Shown piece by piece: positions 10,701 through 22,031 of a stretch of 64,000 nucleotides of DNA. The DNA comes from Chloroflexota bacterium. GTDB taxonomy: Bacteria; Chloroflexota; Anaerolineae; Anaerolineales; Villigracilaceae. The stretch is taken from contig JACRPQ010000004.1 of the NCBI GenBank assembly GCA_016223135.1, positions 62,001 to 126,000 on the forward strand. The letters run 5' to 3'. Numbering within the stretch: the first letter of the stretch is position 1; each line of letters starts with the position of its first letter. The position numbers were made by a program, and so were the translations under genes. The notes beneath the pieces are model-generated. The model had not been told where the DNA came from. It did not search any database and worked only from the letters and a program-made list of their open reading frames with translations.

Positions 10701-11540
10701 TGGCAGGATGTCGCTTAGGTTGAAGGAGGTCATCGTCTGCCCGGGGGCAATCGCAGCGGTGACGGTGTACTGGCGCGGGAAGTTGGGTCCCGTGGCGGTC
10801 TCGTCTTCGGGTCCGTTGTAGGTTTTTTGGAGGGTAAACAGGGTGGGGGTGACGCTGGCGCTCGTCCAAGCGCTGAGGGTCAGGCTGGGGTCGTCGCCGC
10901 AGCACCAGTCATTAAGCGGGGTGTAGCCGAACTGATAGCCGCCGCGCGCCTGAATGGTGAGAGGCGTGCCCAAGTCCGCCAGGTTGCTCATTGAGACAGT
11001 GACATCCACATTCACCGGCGGCTGATCGGACGTGAATGAACCGAAAGGCAGGCGCAGGGCGACGAAGGTATCGCCGGCGTTCCCACAGACTTGTACCGGG
11101 TTACCGGTGTTGTTTACCATGTAGGGGTGATTGACGCAGGTCACGCCGCCGGAGCCGGGGAAAGTTAGGATGGTGTTCTCGACTGCAACACCAAGATACG
11201 TAGCGCTGACGAAGGTCAGACCATCCATTGTGCTCGTGTTTTGATTGCCGTCGGCGCCGTTGCGTGGGATGATGAGGTCAATGAGGGGACCGTAGCCGGG
11301 ATCGGTTGGGTCGGGATTGTCGAAGGTAACGGTGAAGTTGACGTTGTTGCCGATGAATGCTCCAGCCGGCACGTTGAGGCTGACTGCTGGTGCGGAGGCG
11401 GCTGACGGTCTCTCATCCGTCGCAGCAGAGGCAAGGGAATTTCCCCACACACTCTGACCGGCAAGAAACATCAGGATAAGAGCAAAACGAAAAACAAAAC
11501 GCAACCGGTTAGGAATGCGAGAGAGAGATGGAAACGACAT
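1731..11540 (-). CDS. Giant secreted DUF11-repeat surface protein with LPATG motif and fused C-terminal sortase domain
   Basis: 3,269 residues from the ATG at 11540 (GGAGG 5 bases upstream); a frame start at 11633 would add 31 residues before the signal peptide. A signal peptide occupies about residues 1-42 (hydrophobic core FRFALILMFLAG, then ASAA). Next come long beta-rich modules of DUF11/isopeptide-Ig type, at least four of a two-part kind (AIGE..TYxxxxTxPEG, then EPxxxxAK). Six tandem ~130-residue modules follow (KDDGVT..PGSTLTYTI..N.GPSDA), each with a pair of cysteines. Near the end LPATG (3100-3104) is followed not by a membrane anchor but by a ~145-residue sortase domain with H3180 (LTAHVS), C3243 (LITC) and a downstream Arg (3256 or 3260). 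The likely role is an adhesin or cell-surface fibre able to join itself to a partner; that role is inferred. Confidence 0.9.
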   Translation of the reverse strand: MSFPSLSRIPNRLRFVFRFALILMFLAGQSVWGNSLASAATDERPSAASAPAVSLNVPAGAFIGNNVNFTVTFDNPDPTDPGYGPLIDLIIPRNGADGNQNTSTMDGLTFVSATYLGVAVENTILTFPGSGGVTCVNHPYMVNNTGNPVQVCGNAGDTFVALRLPFGSFTSDQPPVNVDVTVSMSNLADLGTPLTIQARGGYQFGYTPLNDWCCGDDPSLTLSAWTSASVTPTLFTLQKTYNGPEDETATGPNFPRQYTVTAAIAPGQTMTSFNLSDILPNNMQFVSLVSTNPGGASCTLPSTTTPGGTLSCNFASVSGTVTMTFEYYIPLRDSSSASVIDPASGDDVTSCNNASGGGTWAPIDTRDTGGTFTQNPTGCEHTLTDKSIAIQKSVSVVGGGDPAPGKYLEYTLNFQISDFFAFNGVVITDVISDGQHFAPGFTPTLQINGNTYTLSAAGFNAANYDVACHYTGAGAECESNTPPINGTTTLIFRVSDEIITRGQDGRLIGGCVPTGGVAGDPSCTGYNDGPTTGSIVFRTLIQQNFTDTFPSGDSSVDQGDTLANTVSIEGLVLSTTDVSTVTDREADTSSASVTIGRGVLTKTIYAVNGSTSFGTPVEVKPGDRVTYRLTYTLTTGDVEDLALDDYLPLPVFHVGDPDENGTAGPAWTFNPTVNAVAPPAGVAKFGPSDTFYNYSLIVPTITSDITNNRLNFFYGDFDGPTEQPYTVDILFTVTVSDDPFADRLYLTNQARAYEGSTNGAPADANAIVQLVLTEPVLTTTKSAVASDRPGAVFTPALPVTFTAPGSAGPRWSGTINSNLLASTPINSDISGVDAGDLVTFAIFLENSGSSINGAFDIVIQDVFDALAFEYPTIGDPNSINLQVYYGSGTGPISYTKPDNTAATPADLFGGGIKLVDPVGQGVCQVHDPNSGNNVIVITYDLRLKSNIAPGTYTNTGSLTNYSGSEGGPNFLPAPQSEDATVTTVAPAIAKTLISTEINDTSNGSTQAVIGEIATYTVTLTIPEGVTSNAQLVDTLDAGLAFVALDSATLSPSLSITGSTTPSVAAGGQAVTFNFGDITNSDNDNTTAETITLTYRVVALNVAGNQSGTLLNNAARFTWNGGSASASAANLTVIEPTVNTAKSVLPTTADAGDTVTFTVTLSNPASGSTTAYDVTWSDVIPTGLSYVSGSASGSCGATPLLISYDSGTSTLSTSVSQLNPGGTCSITFNATVGYSVSPGQTITNTAQTQWTSLPGAVADRSTYNTDSDERNGTGGLLGTGVLNDYRTQGQTSVTINSIAPQKFLAATSEAHTGIPSGATIPRVAIGEIVRYRLVVQLPEGASPNFQIQDQLPAGLTYLDDGTARLALLSNGAPIASTEPTGSTLALALGSGSFGSGPWVNGGDPTVVTPTYALPDQNVGSSNSLTSDLDSYGSGTDPYFKLGTLTNNDSDADAEYVIIEFNALVDNTAAGSNDAGDARNNTFSVFINSVQNGATSNQIQVVVAEPLLTFAKAVATAPVDAGDTIAYTLTISAASGINRSTAFDLSVTDSFNSYLTSLAVTNVTTTQGATCTGNGGGTTPFSHNGGSFTGNTLTFTASCLDPGQSITVTVSGTVAASAPVGYTIPNTANLTYTSLPGTNGTIGNPTGSNNTGTPGSTTGERDGSGTPAQNDYTASGSANTLLAVPQIDKLNPVPTQYAIGQQVTFNLLITLPEGVTPALQVVDNLPLGLEYVSHQIITTAAASGGILAADYNGTLPAPTVTAPGGSGGDLTLVFGDTTTAADNVTNNNAFLVQVVAVVVNESGNQNGTTLTNAATVTWTGGSASDSVNVTVIEPELNIAKAVDDTTPAYGQTLTYTLTVSHLPTSTASAYDVVVTDTLPSGLTYVSGSISAPAGWTTNDTAAPTLTWTCAAPCSLSVGNTASLTYQVTVNGPPGPPNPGDTLTNTASMTWTSTNGTNAKERTGSGGINDYNDSASQTVTLTYPDLTITKTDGQTSYVPGSPLTYTIVVSNIGNGDAIGATVSDNIPPQITSWNWTCTTSGGATCNGSGGPITTDFTDTVNLPAGSSITYTVTAQTAPAATTDLTNTATVTPPAGITDPTPGNNSASDTDTANPQADLSATKDDGVTQYIPGSTLTYTIVVSNAGPSDAPGSLVSDAVPSQVTSWTWACTAQTGGASGCDPYSGSANFSDTVNLPAGSSITYTVTAQVASSATGNLTNTVTVTSPAGVTDSTPGNNTASDTDTQNSQAAISVTKDDGVTEYIPGSTLTYTITVTNTGPSDALGVSVTDNIPPQFTSWTWTCVSSGGATCNGSGGPITTDFSDTVNMPAGSSITYTVTAQVASSATGSLTNTVTISHPADSTPGDNTASDTDTPNFQADLYVTKTDGSTTYTPGVGVTYTVVIGNNGPSDVSGAILTDNIPSQATSWTWTCAGTTGGATGCDPYGPGNVNFSDTVDLPANSSITYTVTVVIPSSATGDLVNTANIEPPAGVTDTNSGNNTASDTDTQNSQAAISVTKDDGVTEYVPGNTLTYTIIVTNAGPSDALGVSVTDNIPPQFTSWTWTCVPSGGATCSGSGGPITTNFSDTVNMPAGSSITYTVTTQVASSATGSLTNTVTISHPADSTPADNTASDTDTPNPQADLSVTKDDGVTVVSPDSTITYTIVVSNAGPSDALGAVVSDLKPSQFDTWDWACTTQTGGASGCDPVTGSTTDFSDTVNLPSGASITYTVTAHIAASAASGSLTNTVTITLPTGVDDPTPANNSDDDTDIVVTNPSGDLIKSLIATNQPFTTDPSAAIGEILTYELVFTIPAGGTLPNLTLTDVLDRGLAFVGCLSVTPSSADITTTLAGGFAAACGDPTNPTVQTEPSGSTNPADPGRRVTFTLGDVSNSGTADGIVTIRYTAVVLDVIENQDGISLNNSAALTWSSGSLAASASDVTIVEPDFELNKTADRAVALPGSTITFTLTLRHTAQSNVDAFDVVLTDVLPAGLTYVPGSLTIISGPAGGVTDDTAAPTLRVTWANFPLLTGSSRSEAVVQFQATLGNLSPGREVQNTASLAWTSLPGDFSAPQSPYNNTSTERYYDPPSAVNIYGVQANVTITVPRLPATGFAPGVVTDIPPQPADKAYTALGDFWLEIPKLGVKMPIVGIPAKGEEWDLTWLWNQAGWLEGTAYPTHAGNSALTAHVSLPNGQPGPFVNLGNLRYGDQIIVHLGGQRYIYEVRQVRQVSPYSLSPLQHEEYSWLTLITCREYDAASRQYRYRLAVRAVLVKIVDE
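3225..5605 (-). repeat. Six tandem ~390-405 bp coding repeats in the giant surface gene
   Basis: Six successive units encode the KTDG/KDDGV..PGS.LTYTI module. Some units are nearly identical at DNA level: the stretch near 3892-3935 recurs near 4677-4720, for example. Each protein unit carries a WTC..C cysteine pair and ends NNTASDTDT or similar. Such near-identity favours unit gain or loss by recombination and can collapse in short-read assemblies. Confidence 0.85.
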
Positions 11541-11651
11541 AAGCCCTCCGTTGGCAGAATGGGTATTGGCAGCTGATTGTGCCACTGGCTCGGCAGAGAT
11601 ACCATGGCGCCCAGATGGGCATCTCTGCTTCATTCACCGCTGCAATTTCAG

Positions 11652-11681
11652 ATTTTATTCCCCCCATTGGTACCAGGTCAA
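11652..11681 (-). promoter_or_regulatory. Candidate sigma-70-type promoter of the giant surface gene
   Basis: On the minus strand TTGACC (11681-11676) and TAAAAT (11657-11652) are 18 bases apart. This gives a leader of about 105 nt before the ATG at 11540. The call is by sequence only. Confidence 0.4.
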
Positions 11682-11746
11682 CGTTGATTCATCACAACTT
11701 TGAAAGGATTTTTTTACTGCAAGCAACGACTCAGGCTGCCTGGAAA

Positions 11747-11778
11747 AGACCCTAAAGGTTTCCGAAACCTTTAGGGTC
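11747..11778 (-). terminator. Perfect hairpin downstream of the 201-residue membrane protein
   Basis: AGACCCTAAAGGTTT pairs perfectly with AAACCTTTAGGGTCT across a 2-nt centre. On the minus strand TCTTTTCC follows, a weak T run. The ACCCTAAAGGT arm recurs in other intergenic repeats here (35143-35348, 40222-40326, 56959-57064), so this may be a repeat serving as a terminator. Confidence 0.55.
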
Positions 11779-11784
11779 TGTGAA

Positions 11785-12390
11785 TTACCCCAACTTGAAC
11801 CCTGCCACAAAGCAAATCGTCATGAGCAGGAGCAGGCTGGGAAGGATTTTGAGGATGGTAGAGCGCGGGACGATGGGCTTGCCGGCTTTGAGGAACGAGA
11901 GCAATAACCCCGCCAGCCCGATCATCGCGCCGCCCAAGCCGACCAGCGCGAAACCGGGTTTCATCGTCCCGTTGGCGGCGAGGATGGAGGGCAGAAGGAA
12001 GATGGTCATGCCTGCGATGCCGTGAACAATGGCAAGCACAAAGGTTGGGAGTTTGCCGGGGACGGGAATCGAGCGGGTCAAGGTCACAGCGAGGAAACCG
12101 CCGATGGCGAAGATCAGGTACGGGGTCCGCAGCGAAGCGATGTGCTGCCAGACGAGTCCAAGCGAGAGGGCAAGCGGGATGACCGTCGAGACGACGACCA
12201 CGATGGGCGAATCCAGCGCTTCGAATCCAAGGATGATGAGGAGCAGTCCCGCCACAAGCAGGACGCCGAAGGCGATGGTGTAGGCGATGATGGGGATTTC
12301 GTCCAGCCCGTTGATGCCGACGGCAACCTGATAGGCGGCGAGGATGCCGGTGAGGAGGAGTAGAACGCGGTCGGTGGAAGTCATTTTCAT
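11785..12390 (-). CDS. Multi-pass membrane protein of unknown function
   Basis: 201 residues, mostly hydrophobic, with about six membrane segments (for example VLLLLTGILAAYQVAVGI, IIAYTIAFGVLLVAGLLLII, ILPSLLLLMTICFVAGF near the C terminus). No family motif was recognised. It begins 7 bases after the stop of the heme-O-synthase-like gene, so the two are probably co-transcribed. No good ribosome site is seen (CCCTCCC precedes the ATG), which fits translational coupling. A role beside heme or quinone chemistry is guilt by association only. Confidence 0.65.
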   Translation of the reverse strand: MKMTSTDRVLLLLTGILAAYQVAVGINGLDEIPIIAYTIAFGVLLVAGLLLIILGFEALDSPIVVVVSTVIPLALSLGLVWQHIASLRTPYLIFAIGGFLAVTLTRSIPVPGKLPTFVLAIVHGIAGMTIFLLPSILAANGTMKPGFALVGLGGAMIGLAGLLLSFLKAGKPIVPRSTILKILPSLLLLMTICFVAGFKLG

Positions 12391-12397
12391 GGGAGGG

Positions 12398-13288
12398 CTA
12401 AATCGAAAGCAAAATCATCGAGATGAGCATGTAGAGCGAGGCGTATTTGAAGAGCGAGAAGTTGACGCGCTCGGATGGGCGGAAGACGGTGGCGAAGGAG
12501 AGCAAAAGCAAGCCCGATGAAAGCACGATGAGCAGACGCAAAATACCCGCCTGCACGCCGATCATCACGCTGGCGGTGCCGATGCTGGCGGCGGCGATGA
12601 TGGACGAGAGCGCAATCACGGCGCGGGTGGTCTCGAAGCCGTAAGTAGAGGGAAAGGTCGGCACGCCGGCGGCGTTGTAGTCGTCGAAGAATTTGATGGA
12701 GAAGGTGAGGGTGTGGGTGGGAATCCAGAAGAGCACCGAGGCGGCAAGCAGCAGACCGATGATTTCGATTTCGCCGACGGCAAGGACGCGCCCCGCCAGG
12801 ATGGGCATGGCGCCCGAAATGCCGCCCCAGACAATGCTCCAGCAGGTGCGGCGTTTGAGCCAGAGGGTGTAGACCGCCACGTCGAAGAACCAGCCGAGGA
12901 AGACCACAAAGCCATAGAGGGGTTGAATCGCCGCCGCCCAACCGATGCCGAGAATCGAAATGAGCATGCCGCCGCGGAAGATTTCGGCGCGGGTCAGTTC
13001 GCCCGAGGCGTTGGGACGTTTCTGCGTGCGCCGCATCTTTGCGTCAATGTCGTGGTCGTACCACATGTTCATAATAGTGGAACCGCCGATAGCGAGGAAG
13101 AGACTCGCCGACATTGCCAGCAAAAGCAGGAAGTTCGGCGGGGTGTGCGCGCTCATGTAACCCGCGATTCCTGTGGCGAGGAGCAAGCCGGATTGCAGGG
13201 GTTTCACCAGCAGCCAAAATTGTGCAAACTTTGAACGGCGTTTGGCTGTTGGAGATTGAAGACTGGTAATTGGTAATTGGGCGGTCAT
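12398..13288 (-). CDS. ctaB: Protoheme IX farnesyltransferase (heme O synthase)-like UbiA-family protein
   Basis: 296 residues from the ATG at 13288, which has AAGGAG 6 bases upstream; an upstream frame start is less likely. The first Asp-rich motif is NMWYDHDIDAKMRRTQKRP (residues 74-92), close to the heme O synthase signature. YTLWLKRRT and GAMP follow at 140-162, and the second Asp motif is FFDDYNAAGVP (200-210). There are about eight to nine membrane segments. The family moves a farnesyl group onto heme b to give heme O for heme-copper oxidases. No cytochrome oxidase genes are in the window, and the sequence departs from typical CtaB at some conserved places, so another prenyl acceptor is possible. 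It sits upstream of the membrane protein at 11785. Confidence 0.72.
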   Translation of the reverse strand: MTAQLPITSLQSPTAKRRSKFAQFWLLVKPLQSGLLLATGIAGYMSAHTPPNFLLLLAMSASLFLAIGGSTIMNMWYDHDIDAKMRRTQKRPNASGELTRAEIFRGGMLISILGIGWAAAIQPLYGFVVFLGWFFDVAVYTLWLKRRTCWSIVWGGISGAMPILAGRVLAVGEIEIIGLLLAASVLFWIPTHTLTFSIKFFDDYNAAGVPTFPSTYGFETTRAVIALSSIIAAASIGTASVMIGVQAGILRLLIVLSSGLLLLSFATVFRPSERVNFSLFKYASLYMLISMILLSI

Positions 13289-13440
13289 GCAAACTCCTTT
13301 GGAAGCAGACAGATGCACAGGTGAATACGTGTACAGGTAAATAATTCAGGCGGCAAGTATACCTGTGTACGTGTGTGCCTGTCTACTTGTGCATGTCATC
13401 AAGTTTATTCCCATGAAGATGCCGCTAGTGGTGAAGTTTA
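13289..13440. repeat. Imperfect palindromic repeat rich in CTGTGTAC/GTACAGGT words
   Basis: Bases about 13310-13400 form an inverted repeat (ATGCACAGGTGAATACGTG against CGTGTGTGCCTGTC..TGTGCAT). The same CCTGTNTACCTGT words occur inside lysA at about 27197-27235. No gene is seen here. Confidence 0.55.
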
Positions 13441-13541
13441 ACGTCAGTTCGGGATAAGCGTCCCGAAGGCTGATTCTGCTCTCGAACCCGCTGCGTCAAA
13501 AGCCTTCGGGACGATTCAAAAGCCTTATCCCGAATTCAGGT
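13441..13541. mobile_element. MITE-like element, family B, copy 1
   Basis: 101 bp, beginning ACGTCAGTTCGGGATAAG and ending CTTATCCCGAATTCAGGT, so the ends are inverted repeats with a short indel. It is flanked by a perfect 7-bp duplication AAGTTTA (13434-13440, 13542-13548). It differs at one position from the copy at 35234-35334. Confidence 0.8.
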
Positions 13542-13621
13542 AAGTTTATGAAAAGCATTTGCGAAGGCGGTAGTAATGAAATCTCCCTCTCTCGTTTTTT
13601 GGGCAATGACGGAAGGGCAAC

Positions 13622-13647
13622 AAAAAAGCCGTCCCAGTAGGGACGGC
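13622..13647 (-). terminator. Rho-independent terminator of the cyclitol/prenyltransferase operon
   Basis: On the minus strand GCCGTCCC-TACT-GGGACGGC is followed by six T residues. It lies 33 bases beyond the stop of the UbiA-like gene. Confidence 0.85.
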
Positions 13648-13679
13648 AAAACGGCATGGAAAAAGCGATTTTGCAAATC

Positions 13680-14579
13680 TCACCGAAGCAGGACAAACAC
13701 CGTCACAATGACCAACTGCGCCAGTGGATAGTAACTGGCTCTATCGAACAATTTGGCGGCGAGGCGCCCTTCCTGCCGGTTTCGGTAAAGGTTCCAGGCG
13801 GGAAGAAGGAGCAGGAAAAAGCCGGCAAGGGTTGATGCAGCCAAATAGGGCAGACCCAGCGCGAGCGGAGAAAGACGCGGCAGGAAGAGGCTGAGAATCA
13901 CCGTCAGCGTGAGGGCGGTCAGGACGACCAGTCCCGCTTTTTGAGGTCCGAATTGAACCGGGATGGTCTTCGCGCCGATGAGTTTGTCTTCGGCGGTGTC
14001 GTTCCAATCTGCGGGAACGTTCTGTCCTCCGATCTCCCAGAAGAGTATCCAGGCAAAGAGCAGAAGCAGCGAGGCAGGCGCGGGTTGAGGATCCACCACA
14101 TAGACGGCGGCGATGGGACCGCTGGCTTTGACCAGCCCGCTGACGAACATCCGCATCCACGTGACCTTGAGGAGCAGACAGTAGATGGCTTCAAGAACAG
14201 CCGCGGCGATGAGTATGAAAACGATGAAGGGGTTGAGGACATACGCGCCGACCAGCGCCGCTGCAAACCAGACGGCAAACCATACCAAGCCGCTGCGATA
14301 ATCGAGCACGCTCTGCGCGAGTGGGTAGCGCATGTCGGAGGCTTCAACGGAATATCCTTCATTCAAACCGCTTCTGGCGAACTTTTCCTTGTCCACCGCA
14401 TAGCCGACGAGGTCGTTGAGGGCATAGATGGCTGTGTAGGCGGCAAAGGCGGTGAAGATGGAGATGGCAATGACCTGCCATTGCGGGAACGCGCCCAGCC
14501 ATAAGAGGGCGGAGAATCCCGGCGCCGCCAGGTCAAGGATGCCGTGCATAGTACGGGAGAGGGCAAAGAATCGTTTCAT
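13680..14579 (-). CDS. UbiA-family prenyltransferase
   Basis: 299 residues with about eight membrane segments. Two Asp-rich Mg-prenyl-diphosphate sites are visible: NDLVGYAVD (55-63) and DWNDTAEDK (191-199). These define the UbiA superfamily, which joins a prenyl chain to an aromatic or cyclic acceptor in the membrane. It is not close to CtaB, and the acceptor cannot be read from the sequence. It starts 6 bases after the UbiG-like methylase and is the last gene before a terminator. In this set (sugar-phosphate cyclase, methylase) a cyclitol or quinone-like acceptor is a reasonable inference. Confidence 0.8.
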   Translation of the reverse strand: MKRFFALSRTMHGILDLAAPGFSALLWLGAFPQWQVIAISIFTAFAAYTAIYALNDLVGYAVDKEKFARSGLNEGYSVEASDMRYPLAQSVLDYRSGLVWFAVWFAAALVGAYVLNPFIVFILIAAAVLEAIYCLLLKVTWMRMFVSGLVKASGPIAAVYVVDPQPAPASLLLLFAWILFWEIGGQNVPADWNDTAEDKLIGAKTIPVQFGPQKAGLVVLTALTLTVILSLFLPRLSPLALGLPYLAASTLAGFFLLLLPAWNLYRNRQEGRLAAKLFDRASYYPLAQLVIVTVFVLLR

Positions 14580-14585
14580 GGGCGT

Positions 14586-15293
14586 TTATCTCTTGATGAA
14601 GTGAGCCATGTAGTTGACGTCTTCTTTATCGTGCGCGACCTTCCAAGTGTTCAGGATGGGATTGTACATCAGGCTGGCAAGGCGCACAAATTCAAGCCCG
14701 CTTTGGCGCGCCCATTCCTTCAATTCGCCGGGGCGGATCAACATGCGATAGGTGTGCGTTCCGCGCGGCAACAGGCGCAGGATGTATTCGCCGCCAACGA
14801 TGGCAAAGAGAAAGGCTTTGGGCGTGCGGTTGATGGTGGAGAAGAAGGCATGCCCGCCGGGCTTGAGGGCGCGCGCGCAAGCCGCAATCACCTTTTGCGG
14901 TTCGGGGACATGCTCAAGCATTTCCATGCAGGTGATGGCGTCGAAACTCCCCGGCTGGGATTCGGCAACCTCCTCCACGCTGACGACGCGATAGTCGATG
15001 GCGAGTCCCTGCGCCTGAGCGTGCTGCCGCGCCGCTTCGATGGAAGCCGTGGAGAGGTCAATGCCCATGACGCGGGCGCCCGCTTTGGCAAGCGCTTCGG
15101 AGAGGATGCCGCCGCCGCAGCCCACATCGAGAATCGCCGGCGAGGAGACGGTTAGAGGTTCGGTGATGAAGCGCGTCCGCAGGGGGTTGATGACGTGCAG
15201 CGTGCGCATTTCGCCTTTCAGGTCCCACCAGATGTGCGCCACATTGTCGAACTTGTTGATTTCTTTGTCGTCGAAATTATTGAATTGGGTCAT
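14586..15293 (-). CDS. UbiG-like SAM-dependent O-methyltransferase
   Basis: 235 residues. The SAM motif LDVGCGGG is at 55-62. The upstream signature GEMRTLHVINPLR (27-39) is that of UbiG, which methylates polyprenyl-hydroxyphenol or catechol intermediates of ubiquinone. HTYRMLIRPGEL and a C-terminal NYMAHFIKR also fit UbiG. Most Chloroflexota are thought to use menaquinone, so a UbiG-like enzyme here is unexpected and may act on the product of the neighbouring cyclase and prenyltransferase. It lies between the cyclase (139 bases upstream) and the UbiA-like gene (6 bases downstream). Confidence 0.82.
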   Translation of the reverse strand: MTQFNNFDDKEINKFDNVAHIWWDLKGEMRTLHVINPLRTRFITEPLTVSSPAILDVGCGGGILSEALAKAGARVMGIDLSTASIEAARQHAQAQGLAIDYRVVSVEEVAESQPGSFDAITCMEMLEHVPEPQKVIAACARALKPGGHAFFSTINRTPKAFLFAIVGGEYILRLLPRGTHTYRMLIRPGELKEWARQSGLEFVRLASLMYNPILNTWKVAHDKEDVNYMAHFIKR

Positions 15294-15332
15294 TGAAAAT
15301 ACCTTGAGATGATTCTGTAATTCTTGTTTTAA

Positions 15333-15394
15333 CCACGGATGAAAGGGATAAAAGTGATTTATTTTCTTATCCCTTTCATCGCTTTTATCCGTGG
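15333..15394. repeat. Intergenic hairpin inside the operon
   Basis: CCACGGATGAAAGGGATAA pairs with TTATCCCTTTCAT..ATCCGTGG. It lies between the cyclase stop and the UbiG-like start. It belongs to the CCACGGAT/ATCCGTGG type of dispersed repeat and could attenuate or stabilise the transcript. Confidence 0.6.
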
Positions 15395-15432
15395 CTGATT
15401 TGAATTGCCGAACGCTCTCACCTTTATTGAAG

Positions 15433-16614
15433 TCATCGAATCAAGAGGGCGGCGCTGTGGTCACTTTCGACCGCCAGAGTGGTGAAAGGATTTACTGCCA
15501 TTCTTTGAACGAGGGCGCGGTGGGCGGTTTGGATTTCGCCAAGCGTGATGTCGTTGAGGAAAACGCAATCGCCGATGCCGTGCGGCATGGGGACGCGCTG
15601 TAATCCGTTGCGGTGATAGGTGCGCTCTTCGAGCGATTGCCAGAGTTCCGGCGGGTTGAGCAGGGAAATGTCGAGGACGATGCCGAGTGCGGCGATGAGG
15701 CGGAAGAGACGGTCAACTTCCGCGCTGGCGAGCAAGCCGCGGGTTTGCGCAAGAAGCGATGAGAAGACGATGTCGAGCAGGACCGCTTCGCCGTGCAGAA
15801 GATGCGCCTCGTTGCGGGTTTCGAGTCCATAACTGAACGTGTGACCGAAGTCCACTTTGCGGGCGAGGTCGTCCTCGAAGAGGTTCGGCTCGAGTTCTTC
15901 GAGCATGCCCGTGATGGCGCGGTCGAGGATGATGCCGCCCATTGTATTTTGGAAACGCGCTTCGACGCTCTCGACGCCATGGCTTTCGAGCATGGCGAAG
16001 AGGCGGGCGTCTTTGATAACCGCAAGTTTGATAATCTCCGCTACGCCGTTGAGCAGGTGACGGCGCGGCAGGGTTTTGAGGAAGGATTTGTCGAGCAGAA
16101 CCCGCTTGGGAGGTTCGAATGAGCCGAGCCGGTTTTTGTGACCGTTGAAATTGATGCCCGTCTTGATGCCGATGGAGGCGTCCACATAGCCCATCAGGGT
16201 GGTGGGGACTTTGATGTGCGGGACGCTGCGGCGGTAACTGCTGGCAACGAAGCCCACCACATCGGTGAGGACGCCGCCGCCAATGGCGATGATTGGCTCG
16301 TCGCGGCGGTGGATGGGGAACGCATCCAATTCGCGGACGAGGTATTGATAGAACGCAATGGTTTTGTTTTCCTCGCCGCCCGGGAAGGTGACGATCTTCG
16401 CATCCACGCCGTGATGGAGGAAGTAGCGATGAATGTCCGCGCCGAAGTGCCTCTCCACGTTTGCGTCCACCACGACGAAGCGGCGGGCGCTGGCGCTCAC
16501 TCCCGGATACAACAGGTCGGTGTTGCGCAGATCGAAGACGTTGGGCGAGTTGACAATTTCATACTGGATGGGGCGCTGATAGTTGACGCGCCAGGCTTGC
16601 CTTGCGTGCGTCAT
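15433..16614 (-). CDS. Sugar-phosphate cyclase of the 2-epi-5-epi-valiolone synthase type (dehydroquinate-synthase superfamily)
   Basis: 393 residues from the ATG at 16614, whose ATGA overlaps the luxS stop. Superfamily features: NAD-binding GGGVLTDVVG (112-121) and zinc ligands E193, H258 (DFGHTF) and H274 (LHGEA). The active-site stretch reads PTTLMGYVDASIGIKTG (137-153), then INFNGHKNRLG. Dehydroquinate synthases instead have KTGVNHPxGKNMIG. The NGHKNRLG form and LPRRHLLNGVAEI are those of C7-cyclitol synthases that use sedoheptulose 7-phosphate. The product is therefore probably a valiolone-type cyclitol, not dehydroquinate. Substrate assignment is an inference from these residues. Confidence 0.78.
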   Translation of the reverse strand: MTHARQAWRVNYQRPIQYEIVNSPNVFDLRNTDLLYPGVSASARRFVVVDANVERHFGADIHRYFLHHGVDAKIVTFPGGEENKTIAFYQYLVRELDAFPIHRRDEPIIAIGGGVLTDVVGFVASSYRRSVPHIKVPTTLMGYVDASIGIKTGINFNGHKNRLGSFEPPKRVLLDKSFLKTLPRRHLLNGVAEIIKLAVIKDARLFAMLESHGVESVEARFQNTMGGIILDRAITGMLEELEPNLFEDDLARKVDFGHTFSYGLETRNEAHLLHGEAVLLDIVFSSLLAQTRGLLASAEVDRLFRLIAALGIVLDISLLNPPELWQSLEERTYHRNGLQRVPMPHGIGDCVFLNDITLGEIQTAHRALVQRMAVNPFTTLAVESDHSAALLIR

Positions 16615-17090
16615 ACAACCCGCCGCCAATCCGCCTTTGCGTCCAGCACCCGGCGTGCGAGTTTCTGGGCGAGTTCAAGGCTGTGATTTTTGTAGTTGCC
16701 GCACTGTTGAATGTTGGCGTATGGCACTTCGCTGGCAACCAGAATATCGTTCAGGATGGTCTCGTAGATGCTAAGGATTCTGTCCGCTCGTCCTTCATTG
16801 TATAGGATGAGATAGAAGCCGGTCTGGCATCCCATCAAACCGACGGAGATAAAGTTTTCTTTCATGTATTTCTGGAAGCCCCACAGCAGGAAATGCTCGA
16901 AGGAATGCATTTCTGTCGAAGACAGGAATTCCACGTTGGGGCGGTTGATGCGTAAATCCACCGCATAGACCACATCGCCGTTCGGTCCTTCGGTGAACGA
17001 GCGCAGTTTGACGTGCGGGGCTTTGAGCAGGCGGTGGTCGAGTTCACCGACCGTTTCCCGCTGCCAGCCGAGTTGTTCGATATTGACCAT
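16611..17090 (-). CDS. luxS: S-ribosylhomocysteine lyase
   Basis: 159 residues. The iron/zinc ligands are H62 and H66 (EMHSFEH) and C130 (QCGNYKNHSL). The catalytic residues E65 and C88 (GCQTGFY) are present, and VDLRINRPN (45-53) is the family substrate region. LuxS splits S-ribosylhomocysteine to homocysteine and DPD, the precursor of AI-2, as part of SAH recycling after methylation. AAAGGAG lies 8 bases before the ATG. Its stop overlaps the start of the sugar-phosphate cyclase by 4 bases, so the two are translationally coupled. No SAH nucleosidase gene is in the window. Confidence 0.93.
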   Translation of the reverse strand: MVNIEQLGWQRETVGELDHRLLKAPHVKLRSFTEGPNGDVVYAVDLRINRPNVEFLSSTEMHSFEHFLLWGFQKYMKENFISVGLMGCQTGFYLILYNEGRADRILSIYETILNDILVASEVPYANIQQCGNYKNHSLELAQKLARRVLDAKADWRRVV

Positions 17091-17106
17091 TGTAAGTACT
17101 CCTTTG

Positions 17107-17245
17107 GCTCACCGTCCTTGCGAACGAAACGAAGCAATCTCCGCTATGGCGAGGGGATTGCTTTGGGTCTCGACACCTGCACTTGCATGCAGGTGCAAGT
17201 GTACGAGCGAGAAAAACGCTCGCTCTACTCGACCCTCGCAATGAC
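17107..17245. repeat. Composite palindromic repeat between luxS and the TIM-barrel gene
   Basis: Contains the widespread word CGAAGCAATC, the outer words CCGTCCTTGCGAA and TCGCAATGACGG as an imperfect inverted pair, a CACTTGCATGCAGGTG palindrome, and a CGCTCGCTCTACTCGACC word. The last is related to the palindrome inside the GT2 gene (53700-53772). No gene is seen. Confidence 0.55.
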
Positions 17246-17252
17246 GGAACAA

Positions 17253-18494
17253 TTAAACAAATTGCGACAAATGCCTGAAACTGTCGTTCAGGGCTTTTTG
17301 CCAGGATTGGACGTGATGATACAGTTCCACCGAGGCGTAGCCCGAAAAGCCGTTATCGGTCAGCGCCTTGAAACTGGAGGCAAAATCAAGCGTGCCTTCG
17401 CCGGGGATTTCATGGAAGTGGACGATGCCCGTCAGCGTGTTGGCGACCATTTTATCCAGAATCGGTTTGCCGCCGCCGCTTTCGGGAGAGCGCAGGTAGG
17501 CGACGATGGGCTTGGCGCGTTCCAGCACATCGTAACTTAAGCCGGGCACGGAGATGAGATAGACGAAGATTTCATTATCGAAGGGCGTCGCGCCGGCATA
17601 CAGACGGTCATAGTCCACGTAATGCACCTCAGCGCGAACGCCGGCGGCATCGAGAATTTGCAGGATGTCGTTTTTCCGCGCGGCGGTCACGGGCTGATCG
17701 TAAAAGTAAATCGGATGTTCGCGATCCACCAGCAGGTATTCGGCGGTGTCGGGGAAGTAAATGAGATAGCGCGCAAAGTCCAAATCCATCGTCAGGTTTT
17801 CGGACCTCTTGACGAGTTTCAGGTTGCAGCCTTCGCGCGCGTCCGAAATGTGCATGTAGCGCGTGTAGGGCGCGGCGCGTCCCAGCGCGTTGACGTAATC
17901 CACCTCCGAACAATAGGCGTGGATGATGTCCACGTGCAGGGCAAACTTGGGTGAATTGATTTCCTTTACCAGCGAGAGTCCCTGCTCCATCGTTTCGATG
18001 TACATGCCGGGTTCAGGCTCAATCAACAGCGTAATATCCTCGTCATCGCGAATGGTGCGCAGACATTGGTGGATGCTGTCCACGAGCAGCTCGCGGGGAT
18101 TGACCGACGGATTGGAGACGTGTTCATCGCGAATGAACCCGCTTCCAAATGTGACGAGGTTGACGCCCAACTGACGCGCCACCTCCACCCCGCGCCTCAC
18201 CAGACCGATGCGGCGTTTGCGCCCCGCCAAATCGGGACTCATCAACGACGGTTCGTGCGGGCGCTGAGGCGTGAAAAAGTGCGAAGCGGTCGCCACGCAG
18301 GCGGCTTTGACGCGCGTCGTCTGCAATTTGCGCTTGACGTTCGCAATGTCTTCGTCGGTGATGTCGAAGGGATTGAACTGATCGCGGTGGAATGAAATTT
18401 CGATGCCGGCATAGCCCGCTTTGTCCACCGCGTCAATGGCATCCAGAAATTTCAGGTTGGTCAACCCGAAGGTGCTATAACTAAGTTGAATCAT
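17253..18494 (-). CDS. Xylose-isomerase-like TIM-barrel protein (sugar phosphate isomerase/epimerase type)
   Basis: 413 residues, longer than the usual 270-300 of this family. The N-terminal half starts MIQLSYSTFGL with GYAGIEISFHRDQF at about 28-41 and carries LLIEPEPG and FALHVDIIHAY strands typical of AP-endonuclease-2-like barrels. A middle stretch (about 235-330) is extra, and the C-terminal part returns to the barrel (GIVHFHEIPGEG, GYASVELY). The reaction is unknown; metal-dependent isomerisation or epimerisation of a sugar or cyclitol is likely. GGAGAGA precedes the ATG. It is the first gene of the luxS-cyclase-ubiG-ubiA run, with a 162-base repeat-filled gap before luxS. Confidence 0.7.
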   Translation of the reverse strand: MIQLSYSTFGLTNLKFLDAIDAVDKAGYAGIEISFHRDQFNPFDITDEDIANVKRKLQTTRVKAACVATASHFFTPQRPHEPSLMSPDLAGRKRRIGLVRRGVEVARQLGVNLVTFGSGFIRDEHVSNPSVNPRELLVDSIHQCLRTIRDDEDITLLIEPEPGMYIETMEQGLSLVKEINSPKFALHVDIIHAYCSEVDYVNALGRAAPYTRYMHISDAREGCNLKLVKRSENLTMDLDFARYLIYFPDTAEYLLVDREHPIYFYDQPVTAARKNDILQILDAAGVRAEVHYVDYDRLYAGATPFDNEIFVYLISVPGLSYDVLERAKPIVAYLRSPESGGGKPILDKMVANTLTGIVHFHEIPGEGTLDFASSFKALTDNGFSGYASVELYHHVQSWQKALNDSFRHLSQFV

Positions 18495-18604
18495 ACTCTC
18501 TCCAAAAACTCAAAACTGCCGCCAGAAAGGCAGGTTCGCGTTTCGCGGGTGGAATTATATGCGAATTGCGGGTTCTGGAAAGCCCTTCTCCTGCGAGGGA
18601 AGGT

Positions 18605-19930
18605 TCACTGCAGCCGTTGACGTACTGCCGCGGCGTGGGCGGTGAGACCTTCCTCGCGGGCGATGACCTCGGCGGCAGGTCCAATGGCGCGCAGCGCGGA
18701 TTCGTTCAGCCCCACCAGGCTGATGATTTTAACAAAATCCAAAACGTTCAACGGGCTGGCAAAGCGCGCCGTCCCGCCGGTCGGCATGGTATGACTGGGA
18801 CCGGCGACATAATCGCCCAGCACCTCGAAACTGGTTTCGCCCAGGAAAATTCCGCCGGCATTTTGCACGCGTTCGATATGCTCCCAGGGATTGCGGAGCA
18901 GCAGACAGAGATGTTCGGGGGCGTACTCGTTGGCGAGGTCGAAAGCCTGCTCCAGGTCGCGGGTGACGACGATGCCGCTGTTGTTTGTCAGTGATTGGCT
19001 CAAAATCTCGGCTCGCCCCAGCGCTTCCATTTGATGAGCGACAGCAGCCTGCACTTTTTCCGCCAGGGCGCGGCTGGGGGTGAGCAGGATGGCGGAAGCC
19101 AGCACGTCATGTTCCGCCTGCGCCAGCAAATCGGCGGCGGCAAACTGCGGGTTGGCGCTTTCATCGGCGATGACGAGAGTCTCGGTGGGACCCGGCAAGC
19201 CGTCAATCCCCACCATGCCATAGACTTGACGCTTGGCAAGAGTGGTGAAGAGACCACCAGGACCGCAGATTTTATCCACCCGCCGCACCGACTCGCTGCC
19301 AAACGCCAGCGCGCCGATCGCCTGCGCGCCGCCGGCGCAATAGACCGCGTCTGCGCCGGCGATGTGCGCCGCCGCCAGCACAGCCGGATGAGGCAGTCCG
19401 CTTTCGCGCTGTGGAGGAGAAATGACAGCCACGAACGGCACGCCCGCCACCTTCGCCGGGATGACGCCCATCAGCGCGGAGCTGGGCAGGGGCGCTGTGC
19501 CGCCCGGCACATAAATGCCGACGCTGGGAATCGGACGCACCAGTTGACCCAATGTGCCGTCTTGGCTGTTGTGAATCCAACTGATGGCTGGCTGCCGGCG
19601 GTGGAAATCCTCGATGCGCCGCGCCGCCAATTGCAGCGCCTCACGCAGTGATGGCGCAAGCGACTCAACCGCCGCCTGAATTTGTTCGGGCGCGACGGCA
19701 ATAGCAGCCAGGTCAATCCCATCCAGACGCTTCGTCCATTCGCGCAGGGCGCGGTCGCCTTCGCGGCGCACATCGTTCAGGATGCGGCGTACCGCCTCGT
19801 CCGGCGTGACGCGCTCGCCGAAGAGCGTTTCGAGACGCGCCAGCAGCGATTCGGGAACGGGAAATTCGTCCCAGGCGTGACGTTTCAAAATGGTGCGTGC
19901 GGCGGTTTCGGAATCCAAAATAGAAAGCAT
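18605..19930 (-). CDS. hisD: Histidinol dehydrogenase
   Basis: 441 residues, the usual length. Conserved stretches include [28 protein letters not shown], the AEHDV active-site region, NEYAPEHL with its catalytic Glu-His, [15 protein letters not shown] and [12 protein letters not shown]. HisD oxidises L-histidinol to histidine in two NAD steps using zinc. Two motif positions are unusual: [13 protein letters not shown] where PGGxAxYPSSVLM is common, and AEHDVLA where AEHDPxA is common. No other his genes are nearby. It lies 110 bases upstream of the TIM-barrel gene, on the same strand. Confidence 0.93.
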
Positions 19931-20142
19931 AGGTTGTTCCTCGATGTTGTCGGCTCATCATACGAATTACACATGAGCCGGGTTATGTTTCCAGCGGCGC
20001 AATAAGTTTGGGCATACTCGCTCATTGGGAATCGCCGTTGATGGAAAGCGACGGCAAATCTGCGTAATCCGTGTACCAAATCACGGCAACTCCCAGAGAG
20101 TCAGCAAATTGCGACCAGACGTTACGTTAACTGTGAAGCGAT

Positions 20143-20148
20143 TATAAT
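20143..20148 (+). promoter_or_regulatory. Candidate -10 box ahead of the importer operon
   Basis: TATAAT, 31 bases before the lipoprotein ATG. No good -35 box is seen (CGTTAC at 17-base spacing). The region 19931-20142 between the divergent hisD and importer genes shows nothing else recognisable. Confidence 0.35.
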
Positions 20149-20179
20149 GCAGCGCATATTTCCATTCTGGAGGAGAAAC

Positions 20180-21142
20180 ATGAAAACATCCCGCATCCTT
20201 CTTGTTGTTCTGCTCATCGCGCTGGCAGTGATGAGCGCCTGTGCTCCCAAGCCGAGCGGTCCTATCAAAGTCCGCATCGGTACCCAGCCATGGATTGGCT
20301 ACGGTCCCTGGTGGATTGCGCAGGAAAAAGGCTTGTTCGCCAAATACGGCTTGGAAGTGGAATTGGTGGACTTCGTGCAGGATACCGAAGTCAACGCCGC
20401 GTTTGCTTCCGGCGAAATGGACGCCGCCAACCTCGCCACCCACACCGCCATCAAGTTGTTCGCCAACGGCGTGGACCTGAAAGTGGTTCTGCTCGAAGAC
20501 GCCTCTTATGAAGCCGATGCCATGCTGGCTTCAGCGGGCGTGCAATCCATCGCCGACCTGAAAGGCAAAGGCGTGGCGTATGAGGAAGGCTCCACCAGCG
20601 ATTTGCTCCTCAACTACGCCCTGGCGCAAAACGGCATGTCGCTGGCGGATATTACTCCCGTCCCCATGCCCGCTTCAGACGCCGGCTCCGCGTTGATTGC
20701 CGGTCAGGTGGATGTGGCGGTCACCTATGAGCCGTACATTTCCGCGGCATTGGCTGAGAGCCAGGACGTACACGTCCTTTACACCGCCGGGGAGCGCCCA
20801 GGCTTGATTTCGGATGTCTTCGTGGTGAGCGACAAATTCGCCCAGGAAAATCCCGAGGCGGTCAAAGCCCTGCTCAAGGTCTGGGATGAAGCGATGGCGT
20901 TCTACAAGTCGAATCCCGACGAAGCGAAAAGCATCATCGCCAACGCGGTCGGCAGTTCGCTGGAGGAACTCGCCACCGCCTTCGACGGCGTGCAGTTCTA
21001 CGACCTGAGCGCCAATCAGTCCGAACTGAGCGGCGGTTTCACGGAGACCATTCAGGACGTGGCGGAAGTCTCCAAGTCCATCGGCTTGTTCGAGACCATT
21101 CCCGACCTGAAAACGATGGTGGACACATCGTTTTTGAAGTAG
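20180..21142 (+). CDS. ABC importer substrate-binding lipoprotein (SsuA/NMT1-like)
   Basis: 320 residues from the ATG at 20180 (GGAGGAG 5 bases upstream). A lipoprotein signal ends with VMSAC, so C21 would be lipidated. The mature part begins VRIGTQPWIGYGPWWIAQEKGLF, the typical start of SsuA/TauA/NMT1-like binding proteins for sulfonates, nitrate, taurine or thiamine precursors. The substrate cannot be assigned. A permease and ATPase follow, so this is the receptor of a complete importer. Confidence 0.88.
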   Translation: MKTSRILLVVLLIALAVMSACAPKPSGPIKVRIGTQPWIGYGPWWIAQEKGLFAKYGLEVELVDFVQDTEVNAAFASGEMDAANLATHTAIKLFANGVDLKVVLLEDASYEADAMLASAGVQSIADLKGKGVAYEEGSTSDLLLNYALAQNGMSLADITPVPMPASDAGSALIAGQVDVAVTYEPYISAALAESQDVHVLYTAGERPGLISDVFVVSDKFAQENPEAVKALLKVWDEAMAFYKSNPDEAKSIIANAVGSSLEELATAFDGVQFYDLSANQSELSGGFTETIQDVAEVSKSIGLFETIPDLKTMVDTSFLK

Positions 21143-21146
21143 GTTG

Positions 21147-21178
21147 TTGTAGGGCAAGTCTGAAGACTTGCCCTACAA
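21147..21178. repeat. Perfect 14-bp stem hairpin between importer genes
   Basis: TTGTAGGGCAAGTC pairs with GACTTGCCCTACAA across a 4-nt loop. It sits 5 bases after the binding-protein stop and before the permease. Such a hairpin could protect the upstream mRNA so the binding protein is made in excess. Confidence 0.7.
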
Positions 21179-21215
21179 TGTTGACGTTCGAGTTAGTTGA
21201 CGTTAGAGAACGTCA

Positions 21216-22031
21216 ATGCGCCATGTCATGAAAAAACATTCCTCTCCCCTTCTCGAATTACGCCGTCCCATTCCCCCCGCTTGGTATTGGGGAGCGGGGT
21301 TGGGCTTCATCGCTTTGTTCGTGCTGGTGTGGGTGCTCCTCACCTCGCTGGGGCTGGTGTCGCGCATCTTTCTGCCTCCGCCGCTGGCGGTGTGGAACGA
21401 ATTGCTGCGCCAGGCGCAAAGCGGCATTCTCTGGCAGGATGCCGGCGTCAGCCTGTACCGCATTTTCGTCGGGTGGCTGATTTCCACCCTGCTGGCGGTT
21501 CCCATCGGAATCCTGATGGGCAATTTTCAATTCTTCGAGGGCTTGTTCGAACCGTTCATTGACCTGGTGCGCTACATGCCCGCCGTGGCTTTCGTCCCGC
21601 TGACAATTCTTTGGCTGGGCGTGGGCGACACGCAAAAGTTTGCGATTCTCTTCATCGGCACGTTCTTTCAGGAAGCGCTGCTCATCATGGACAACGTCAA
21701 GACCGTGCCGCGCGAGTTGATTCAGGTCAGTTCCACCTTTGGCTTGAGCAAGTGGGAGATTCTGCGGGATGTCATCCTGCGCGCCGCCATGCCGGGCATC
21801 TGGGATACCTTTCGCATCACGCTCGGCTGGGCGTGGACGTATCTGGTCGTGGCGGAACTGGTCGCCGCCAGCGTGGGTCTCGGCTACCGCATCATGCGCG
21901 CCCAGCGCTTTCTGGAAACCGAGACCATCATCCTGGGCATCCTCATCATCGGCGCGATGGGCTTGATTACCGATTATCTCTTCAAACTCACCTACAAAAA
22001 ACTCTTCCGCTGGGCGGTGCAATCGCGATGA
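21216..22031 (+). CDS. ABC importer permease (SsuC-like)
   Basis: 271 residues with about six membrane segments. The cytoplasmic coupling loop reads STFGLSKWEILRDVILRAAMP (about 174-194), the EAA-type motif of BPD_transp_1 permeases. The start may be the ATG at 21216 or 21228. Its stop overlaps the start of the ATPase (ATGA at 22028-22031), which shows translational coupling within the importer operon. Confidence 0.88.
   Translation: MRHVMKKHSSPLLELRRPIPPAWYWGAGLGFIALFVLVWVLLTSLGLVSRIFLPPPLAVWNELLRQAQSGILWQDAGVSLYRIFVGWLISTLLAVPIGILMGNFQFFEGLFEPFIDLVRYMPAVAFVPLTILWLGVGDTQKFAILFIGTFFQEALLIMDNVKTVPRELIQVSSTFGLSKWEILRDVILRAAMPGIWDTFRITLGWAWTYLVVAELVAASVGLGYRIMRAQRFLETETIILGILIIGAMGLITDYLFKLTYKKLFRWAVQSR

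Follow-up and report, generated by a model that had tools for sequence, protein, structure and literature searches.

The window analysed here is a stretch of 64 kb (64,000 nucleotides) from a Chloroflexota genome of 3.8 Mb assembled in 19 contigs. Its minus strand carries, from position 18494 down to 13680, five genes that we name the cassette and that are ordered, 5′ to 3′, TIM barrel, LuxS-like, cyclase, UbiG and UbiA. The first gene codes a TIM-barrel keto-sugar/keto-cyclitol epimerase- or dehydratase-like enzyme (17253-18494; 413 amino acids; PF01261). It is followed by genes for a LuxS-like protein (16611-17090; 159 amino acids; PF02664, 115.3 bits for a cut-off of 27), a cyclase of the sedoheptulose-7-phosphate type (15433-16614; 393 amino acids; PF01761/PF24621), an S-adenosylmethionine O-methyltransferase of the UbiG type (14586-15293; 235 amino acids; TIGR01983, 267 bits for a cut-off of 103) and a membrane prenyltransferase of the UbiA superfamily (13680-14579; 299 amino acids; PF01040, 88.6 bits). 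The coordinates confirm what a first-pass annotation of this DNA had read from it: five genes on the same strand, a 4-base overlap between luxS and the cyclase gene and a spacing of 6 bases between ubiG and ubiA. The cyclase start is best placed at 16614, where its ATG lies within an ATGA that overlaps the luxS stop codon (16611-16614); an alternative TTG start is found further up, at 16629. A terminator-like hairpin on the minus strand (13628-13647; 8 pairs, then TTTTTT) ends the cassette. The single terminator noted previously is thus present as a structure, but hairpins in positions 10000-22000 are no more frequent than in shuffled sequence (10 versus a mean of 13.0). The promoter scan of the same segment also gave nothing above chance (4 versus 4.4 in shuffles). 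Two bigger gaps, which the first-pass annotation did not mention, interrupt the window cassette: 162 bases between the TIM-barrel gene and luxS, and 139 bases between the cyclase gene and ubiG. The latter contains an inverted pair of the palindromic CCACGGAT-type repeat (15333-15394, without strand; 2 matches versus 0.00 expected). The former (17091-17252) is full of palindromic, repeat-like sequence and holds the sole GTCATTGCGAGG of the window, an occurrence that by itself is not above chance.

The five genes are one co-inherited and conserved cassette, found in the same order in four phyla. In a set of 61 genomes (the window genome and 60 relatives) a LuxS-like gene is present in 15, and a high-scoring cyclase is found in the same 15 genomes on the same contigs. 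These cassette cyclases score 516-892 bits while all other matches stay at or below 155 bits. The regions fetched from 14 of the relatives all (14/14) show the five genes with unchanged order and strand, UbiA being truncated by the contig end in genome G007. A scan of named genomes with the cyclase alignment, which detects only cyclases retaining one of two peptides, yielded 90 confirmed loci of which 80 were kept. As 11 contigs are common to the 80 named loci and the 14 fetched regions, the two sets amount to 83 distinct contigs. All five genes, each with at least 80% coverage, are in order in 71 of the 80 named loci, so that the conserved gene order, a test set in advance, was found in both collections. 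Six of the nine incomplete loci end at contig ends (L070, L074, L082, L088, L113, L126), and UbiA is split over two reading frames in L112. Locus L106, from a Natronospirales metagenome-assembled genome (MAG), begins part-way through the LuxS-like gene; its cyclase and UbiG are joined in a single open frame (171-2123, 650 amino acids), a fusion that may be genuine or may stem from a sequencing error. The ninth, L090, is considered further below. According to their record titles the 71 complete loci belong to Chloroflexota (32), Mycobacterium (3; szulgai, angelicum and simulans), Eremiobacterota (1) and 35 others counted as Proteobacteria, a label given to every locus whose title names none of the other three groups.

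Gene spacing is tight in most of these loci. The counts are approximate, gene starts having been set by rule: an overlap is found between LuxS and cyclase genes in 58/71 and between cyclase and UbiG genes in 67/71, and UbiG and UbiA genes overlap or are spaced by at most 30 bases in 56/71. Given the overlap of cyclase and UbiG genes elsewhere, the inserted inverted CCACGGAT-type repeats are the likely reason for the 139-base gap of the window. The genes that flank the window cassette, hisD upstream and the heme O synthase gene (ctaB) downstream, do not travel with it: each is found in 0/14 fetched regions, and in the named loci hisD accompanies the cassette in 1/80 and ctaB in 0/80. A strong cyclase match (>600 bits) was obtained in 11 of 400 sampled Chloroflexota genomes (window genome included), all from the window's own family, and four weaker matches (206-239 bits) lie outside that family. 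Among 148 sampled genomes of the genus of M. szulgai the strong cyclase is present in 3. Weaker relatives of sedoheptulose 7-phosphate cyclases (350-358 bits) occur in two genomes of this genus (G478:C568:3924-5072 and G491:C1:225952-227076) and may serve other pathways.

The cyclase defines the probable entry point of the pathway. The motif NGHKNRLG, cited originally as the mark of a valiolone-type rather than a dehydroquinate-type cyclase, is present at residues 157-164, and the comparisons that follow agree with that assignment. The closest solved match is 4p53 (397 bits), whose entry title reads “Cyclase” and which we take to be ValA, followed by 5tpr (327 bits), entitled “3-dehydroquinate synthase” and presumably DDGS; the remaining dehydroquinate synthases score 178 bits or less. 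The window cyclase is 44% identical to 4p53 and 38% to 5tpr, within ranges of 40-44% for EEVS-type cyclases, 35% for a fourth sedoheptulose 7-phosphate cyclase, 36-38% for DDGS, 27-30% for EboD and 28-30% for AroB. It does not pass the AroB model TIGR01357 (222 bits for a cut-off of 305). An IQ-TREE phylogeny was built from 34 rows (19 cassette cyclases, six sedoheptulose 7-phosphate cyclases, four AroB, four EboD and one unclassed row; DOIS, aminoDHQS and EVS were left out). The 19 cassette cyclases form one clade (100/100) and, together with the six sedoheptulose 7-phosphate cyclases, split from AroB, EboD and the unclassed row at 99/99. Their exact sister, including the relation to ValA, is poorly supported (47/79 for the sedoheptulose 7-phosphate cyclase group), and long-branch warnings were issued for four rows (L147, L144, L002 and 3clh). 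Alignment columns point in the same direction. In 63 columns the four AroB rows are invariant and the cassette rows nearly so, and 15 of these columns carry different residues in the two groups. In 8 of the 15 the same residue is found in all three EEVS-type rows, namely ValA and two proteins annotated as sedoheptulose 7-phosphate cyclases, and the cassette follows them in 7 (M237, N244, R252, V254, D255, S261 and D281). The eighth column is Tyr262 of the motif GHxFS(P/Y), a position occupied by Pro in the EEVS and DDGS rows and by His in AroB and EboD. The window genome holds a separate AroB-like gene within a 523-amino acid frame. An ordinary shikimate step was rejected on the basis of scores, tree and columns, none of them AroB-like, and of this other AroB-like gene. 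Sequence comparison thus places the cassette cyclase on the side of the sedoheptulose-7-phosphate cyclases and not with AroB or EboD.

The LuxS-like protein is the most unexpected member of the set. With B. subtilis LuxS as the reference for numbering, residues were surveyed in 80 rows (the window protein and those of 79 loci). His11, Arg39, His54, Glu57, His58, Cys84 and Cys126 are retained in 80/80, and the residue preceding Glu8 is Gly in 80/80. Asp78 is replaced by Ser, Gly or Cys, and Ser80 by Gly or Ala, in all 80 rows. Six aligned solved lyases possess both Arg65 and Asp78. According to the accessible part of PMC2656534, Glu57, Arg65 and Asp78 are important for substrate binding by LuxS. 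The LuxS-like proteins of the window, L081 and L136 (3/3) match 10 NCBIfam lyase models and stay under the cut-off of every one. The usual source of S-ribosylhomocysteine, the Pfs/MTAN nucleosidase, is rarely recognised next to them. At E 1e-3 the window genome gives no match. In the relatives set the model is passed by 1/15 cassette genomes (G019, in pieces), and elsewhere by 4/16 cassette genomes (three Mycobacterium and a Comamonas MAG), that is by 5/31 overall, leaving 26/31 in which the enzyme is unrecognised. S-adenosylhomocysteine hydrolase is over cut-off in 15/15 cassette genomes of the relatives set, the window genome included; its gene lies on the cassette contig, ~5 and ~12 kb away, in two of them (G003:C19:3-1319 and G010:C41:25672-26991). 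Each of the non-Chloroflexota genomes examined (16/16) has a single LuxS-family gene, whose coordinates coincide with those of the cassette copy in every case. From catalytic residues that are kept, a binding site for S-ribosylhomocysteine that is altered and a source of this compound that is unrecognised in most genomes, we infer a changed substrate. The LuxS-like protein is an intrinsic part of the cassette and is probably not an S-ribosylhomocysteine lyase. The first-pass annotation had correctly included it in the unit and assigned it no role; the residues and the Pfs counts make the lyase activity improbable.

The TIM-barrel protein has TM_0416, IolI, AsbF and ketose epimerases as sequence relatives. 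A structure model computed from 29 sequences (pLDDT 92.7, pTM 0.90) was compared with solved structures, and the fold searches match both epimerase-like and dehydratase (AsbF) structures. The best VIA-align matches are 3wqo and 2zvr, which are D-tagatose/ketose 3-epimerase-like (Z about 30; 2.1-2.3 Å over 251-257 residues; Z differences under 1 are counted as ties). The cassette protein is ~115-155 residues longer than its solved relatives, the additional residues being mostly located between residues 221 and 360. Glu159, Asp189, His215 and Glu390 are invariant in the 29 rows and presumably correspond to the metal-binding positions of the ketose 3-epimerase-like family.

UbiG and UbiA relatives act mostly on aromatic rings, the UbiG family methylating phenolic hydroxyls. 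The window UbiA has the motifs NDxxGxxxD and DWNDxxED. N55, D56, D63, D191, N193, D194 and D198 are kept in 76/76 rows and E197 in 75/76. The protein passes PF01040 though it is far below every NCBIfam cut-off that it matches. A polyprenyl diphosphate synthase gene, a candidate source of the prenyl donor, adjoins the cassette in 5/83 distinct contigs. These represent three lineages, with three loci in Mycobacterium and one each in Comamonas and strain HdN1, and PF00348 confirms the assignment for 4 of the 5.

The histories of the five genes are alike. FastTree phylogenies of 72 rows (the window and the 71 complete loci) were built for each protein and read for groupings only, branch support not being considered. 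In all five trees the three Mycobacterium rows stand together, and Chloroflexota plus Mycobacterium are on one side of the tree versus the rest. Chloroflexota alone require two changes in each tree; Mycobacterium therefore apparently lies inside Chloroflexota in all five. The IQ-TREE cyclase phylogeny contains an eight-row set (97/94) composed of six Chloroflexota and both Mycobacterium rows, with a ninth row, also from Chloroflexota, outside (80/93); the finer position of Mycobacterium is poorly supported. Five concordant gene trees are the pattern expected from a single transfer of the whole block. The trees suggest that the cassette apparently moves between phyla as a block, including into mycobacteria.

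EEVS-type cyclases convert sedoheptulose 7-phosphate to a keto-cyclitol, C7H12O6. The TIM-barrel (PF01261) and LuxS families are metal-dependent enolising enzymes, and a cyclohexanone polyol becomes a phenol on losing two waters. On this background we give a probability of about one half to the reading that the five genes form a redox-neutral route from sedoheptulose 7-phosphate to an aromatised, prenylated and O-methylated ring. The cyclase would convert sedoheptulose 7-phosphate to a 2-epi-5-epi-valiolone-type keto-cyclitol (C7H12O6) with release of phosphate. The TIM-barrel and LuxS-like enzymes would then epimerise or relocate the ketol and eliminate two molecules of water to give a hydroxymethyl-benzenetriol (C7H8O4), a conversion that would need no redox step. 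UbiA would add a prenyl chain to the ring and UbiG would methylate one of the ring's hydroxyls, as happens in ubiquinone biosynthesis, the end product being a prenylated methoxy-quinol formed independently of the shikimate pathway. The aromatic reading is attractive because the keto-cyclitol needs just two water losses and the cassette has two enolising metalloenzymes and no oxidoreductase. A methylated cyclitol was the product initially foreseen. Prenylation and methylation are kept from that proposal, but an aromatic, quinol-like compound appears likelier because the relatives of UbiG and UbiA mostly act on aromatic rings. The farnesylation of quinolines by the EboC-type enzyme Ubi-297 provides a precedent for an aromatic acceptor (PMC9235831, available portion). 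We infer the substrates, the two dehydrations, the aromatic product and its role alike. A bolder version, in which the product is a shikimate-independent prenylated quinol, one of the dehydrations is carried out by the LuxS-fold enzyme and the portable cassette gives its hosts an extra electron carrier or an antioxidant lipid, is put forward tentatively and is less probable than the route itself.

Several observations pull the other way. Tyr262 in place of Pro suggests that the cyclase product may differ from that of EEVS and DDGS. Structurally the TIM barrel is nearest to ketose 3-epimerases; AsbF, a dehydroshikimate dehydratase, is a weaker relative (Foldseek rank 8; none among the 50 VIA-align rows listed), and judging from the model the enzyme may epimerise rather than dehydrate. 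In the LuxS-like protein Arg65 is retained in 13/80 rows and Pro81 in 8/80, and the loss of binding residues is no proof that the substrate has changed. Many cassette genomes have weak nucleosidase-like matches that stay under the Pfs cut-off, so a diverged Pfs may exist. The usual middle Asp of the first UbiA motif is Gly in 75/76 rows, L090 is without UbiG between cyclase and UbiA, and 78/83 contigs, many of them short, are without a prenyl synthase of the cluster that adjoins the cassette in the other five. Menaquinone genes were counted as well: menD is over cut-off in 3/15 cassette genomes, the window genome among them, and mqnC in 0/15, so that 12/15 have neither, as compared to 21/22 cassette-free family members (33/37 together). 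As nearly all cassette-free members are also without menD and mqnC over cut-off, the cassette is, by these counts, not linked to that loss, and the idea that it replaces menaquinone was dropped.

A first alternative leaves the ring as a saturated or partly unsaturated cyclitol, which the TIM barrel would epimerise, the LuxS-like enzyme would modify by shifting the carbonyl, UbiG would methylate and UbiA would prenylate to yield a membrane cyclitol lipid. The proximity of the TIM barrel to ketose 3-epimerases, a cyclase of the C7-cyclitol type and the absence of an oxidoreductase from the five genes are all in its favour. We nevertheless hold it to be rather unlikely, as UbiG is well above the cut-off of a ubiquinone methylase model and belongs to a family that acts on phenolic hydroxyls. 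Published work bears on it in both senses: a similar proposal was made for the ebo operon (PMC5133447, in the portion available), but a characterised EboC-type enzyme prenylates aromatics (PMC9235831, likewise). In another reading the LuxS-like protein works as a normal S-ribosylhomocysteine lyase, clearing the by-product of UbiG or making autoinducer 2 (AI-2), and the other four genes alone are the pathway. Pfam LuxS is indeed passed well over cut-off, metal and catalytic residues are complete in all rows, the cassette methyltransferase yields S-adenosylhomocysteine, and Pfs is over cut-off in five cassette genomes (the three from Mycobacterium, the Comamonas MAG and G019). This reading is improbable in view of the S-adenosylhomocysteine hydrolase over cut-off in every cassette genome of the relatives set, of a source of S-ribosylhomocysteine that is mostly unrecognised (no Pfs/MTAN over cut-off in 14/15 plus 12/16 genomes), of Asp78 and Ser80 at 0/80 each and of scores below all 10 lyase-model cut-offs; moreover, the cassette copy is the only LuxS-family gene in the 16 non-Chloroflexota genomes.

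It can also be asked whether the set is a divergent ebo operon doing the work of EboC, EboD and EboE in export or synthesis of a prenylated metabolite, since a UbiA protein, a sugar phosphate cyclase and a TIM barrel come together in one operon in both. The cyclase, however, is outside the EboD clade (four EboD rows, a clade of their own at 100/100). Comparison by hhalign gives a probability of 4.4% over 43 columns for the TIM barrel versus EboE and 0.6% for UbiA versus EboC, tests that are weak owing to shallow profiles. Three EboE and three EboC queries had no match at E 1e-3 in the 94 loci, although EboE proteins taken from three genera have 42-43% in common. Queries with EboA (one), EboB (two) and EboF (two) likewise found 0/94 loci at 1e-3 with flanks of at most ~9 kb, many shorter, a search that could miss the fast-evolving EboA, and the EboD query matches only the cassette cyclase. 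Identity with the ebo operon was rejected from the cyclase clade and the profile and BLAST tests, and we regard it as very improbable. That unrelated housekeeping genes lie together by chance is scarcely credible: the two intergenic gaps above 100 bases in the window would fit such an arrangement, but the order is identical in four phyla with overlaps in most loci, the five trees are concordant, and hisD and ctaB almost never accompany the cassette elsewhere. The aromatised, prenylated and O-methylated ring remains our preferred outcome of the five genes.

Other genes near the cassette were noted in individual genomes. In the Rhodanobacter MAG locus L107, a cytochrome c and a COX1-family protein (4474-7127), NorC/NorB-like, are found just before the cassette and a CRP/FNR-type regulator (12035-12817) just after it, the Pfam check covering L107 only. 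An FNR-like gene is near the cassette in 5/83 distinct contigs, and the cassette adjoins nirS in SURF MAG 42 (PMC8756737, part available). A link to denitrification was dropped, the nirS, NorC/NorB-like and FNR-like neighbours being too few to claim it. A heme-copper oxidase is over cut-off in 15/15 cassette genomes versus 34/46 others, a difference that is too weak and confounded by kinship; 33/37 members of the window's family have one. Elsewhere in the window the minus strand codes a 3300-amino acid DUF11-repeat protein (1731-11633; 9 stretches) with its own sortase domain at residues 3161-3295, preceded by an LPATG-like string, possibly a sorting signal and its sortase in one chain.

If the proposed route is correct, four phyla possess a compact way of making a prenylated ring compound out of a common sugar phosphate, and a LuxS-fold enzyme has a job outside the activated methyl cycle; we know of no other LuxS-fold enzyme with such a role. 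Annotation would also have to be corrected: matches that stay under the cut-off connect the cyclases with “3-dehydroquinate synthase” models and the LuxS-like proteins with “S-ribosylhomocysteine lyase” models, so that a luxS seen in Mycobacterium or Rhodanobacter could wrongly be taken as a sign of quorum sensing.

Comparison with known systems sets the cassette apart in several respects. The nearest solved relatives of its cyclase, 4p53 and 5tpr, differ from it by Pro for Tyr and by standing outside the clade of the cassette cyclases (100/100). With LuxS the LuxS-like protein has in common the fold family, the metal ligands and the catalytic Glu57 and Cys84; it differs by the absence of Asp78 and Ser80, by the scarcity of Arg65, by a Pfs that is mostly unrecognised and by its location in a biosynthetic cassette. 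As in the ubiquinone pathway of UbiA and UbiG, one ring would be both prenylated and O-methylated, but the source of this ring would be a sugar phosphate cyclase in the cassette and is chorismate in ubiquinone. The ebo operon (eboA-F; EDB cluster; available parts of PMC5133447 and PMC6282210) has in common UbiA, cyclase and TIM barrel, and the cassette adds LuxS-like and UbiG genes, neither of which is among the six ebo genes. A prenylated C7-cyclitol (isoprenoid-cyclitol) was proposed as the ebo product in PMC5133447 as far as available. The C7-cyclase pathway announced by the first-pass annotation, which the sequences support as far as sequence evidence reaches, is not a wholly new idea. The same source describes the BE-40644 cluster of Actinoplanes, in which a C7 cyclitol is modified and farnesylated. 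This is a single actinomycete natural product, set apart by its description, with no LuxS-like gene mentioned in the accessible portion of PMC5133447. As for the five-gene combination itself, the only record found in the open-licence literature searched is a gene list, appendix Table A1 of PMC8756737, whose available part gives the five open reading frames in the nirS neighbourhood of SURF MAG 42 and does not discuss them as a pathway. The kind of pathway, a sedoheptulose 7-phosphate cyclase combined with a prenyltransferase, is already known, and the unusual part of the cassette is apparently the recruitment of a LuxS-fold enzyme into biosynthesis.

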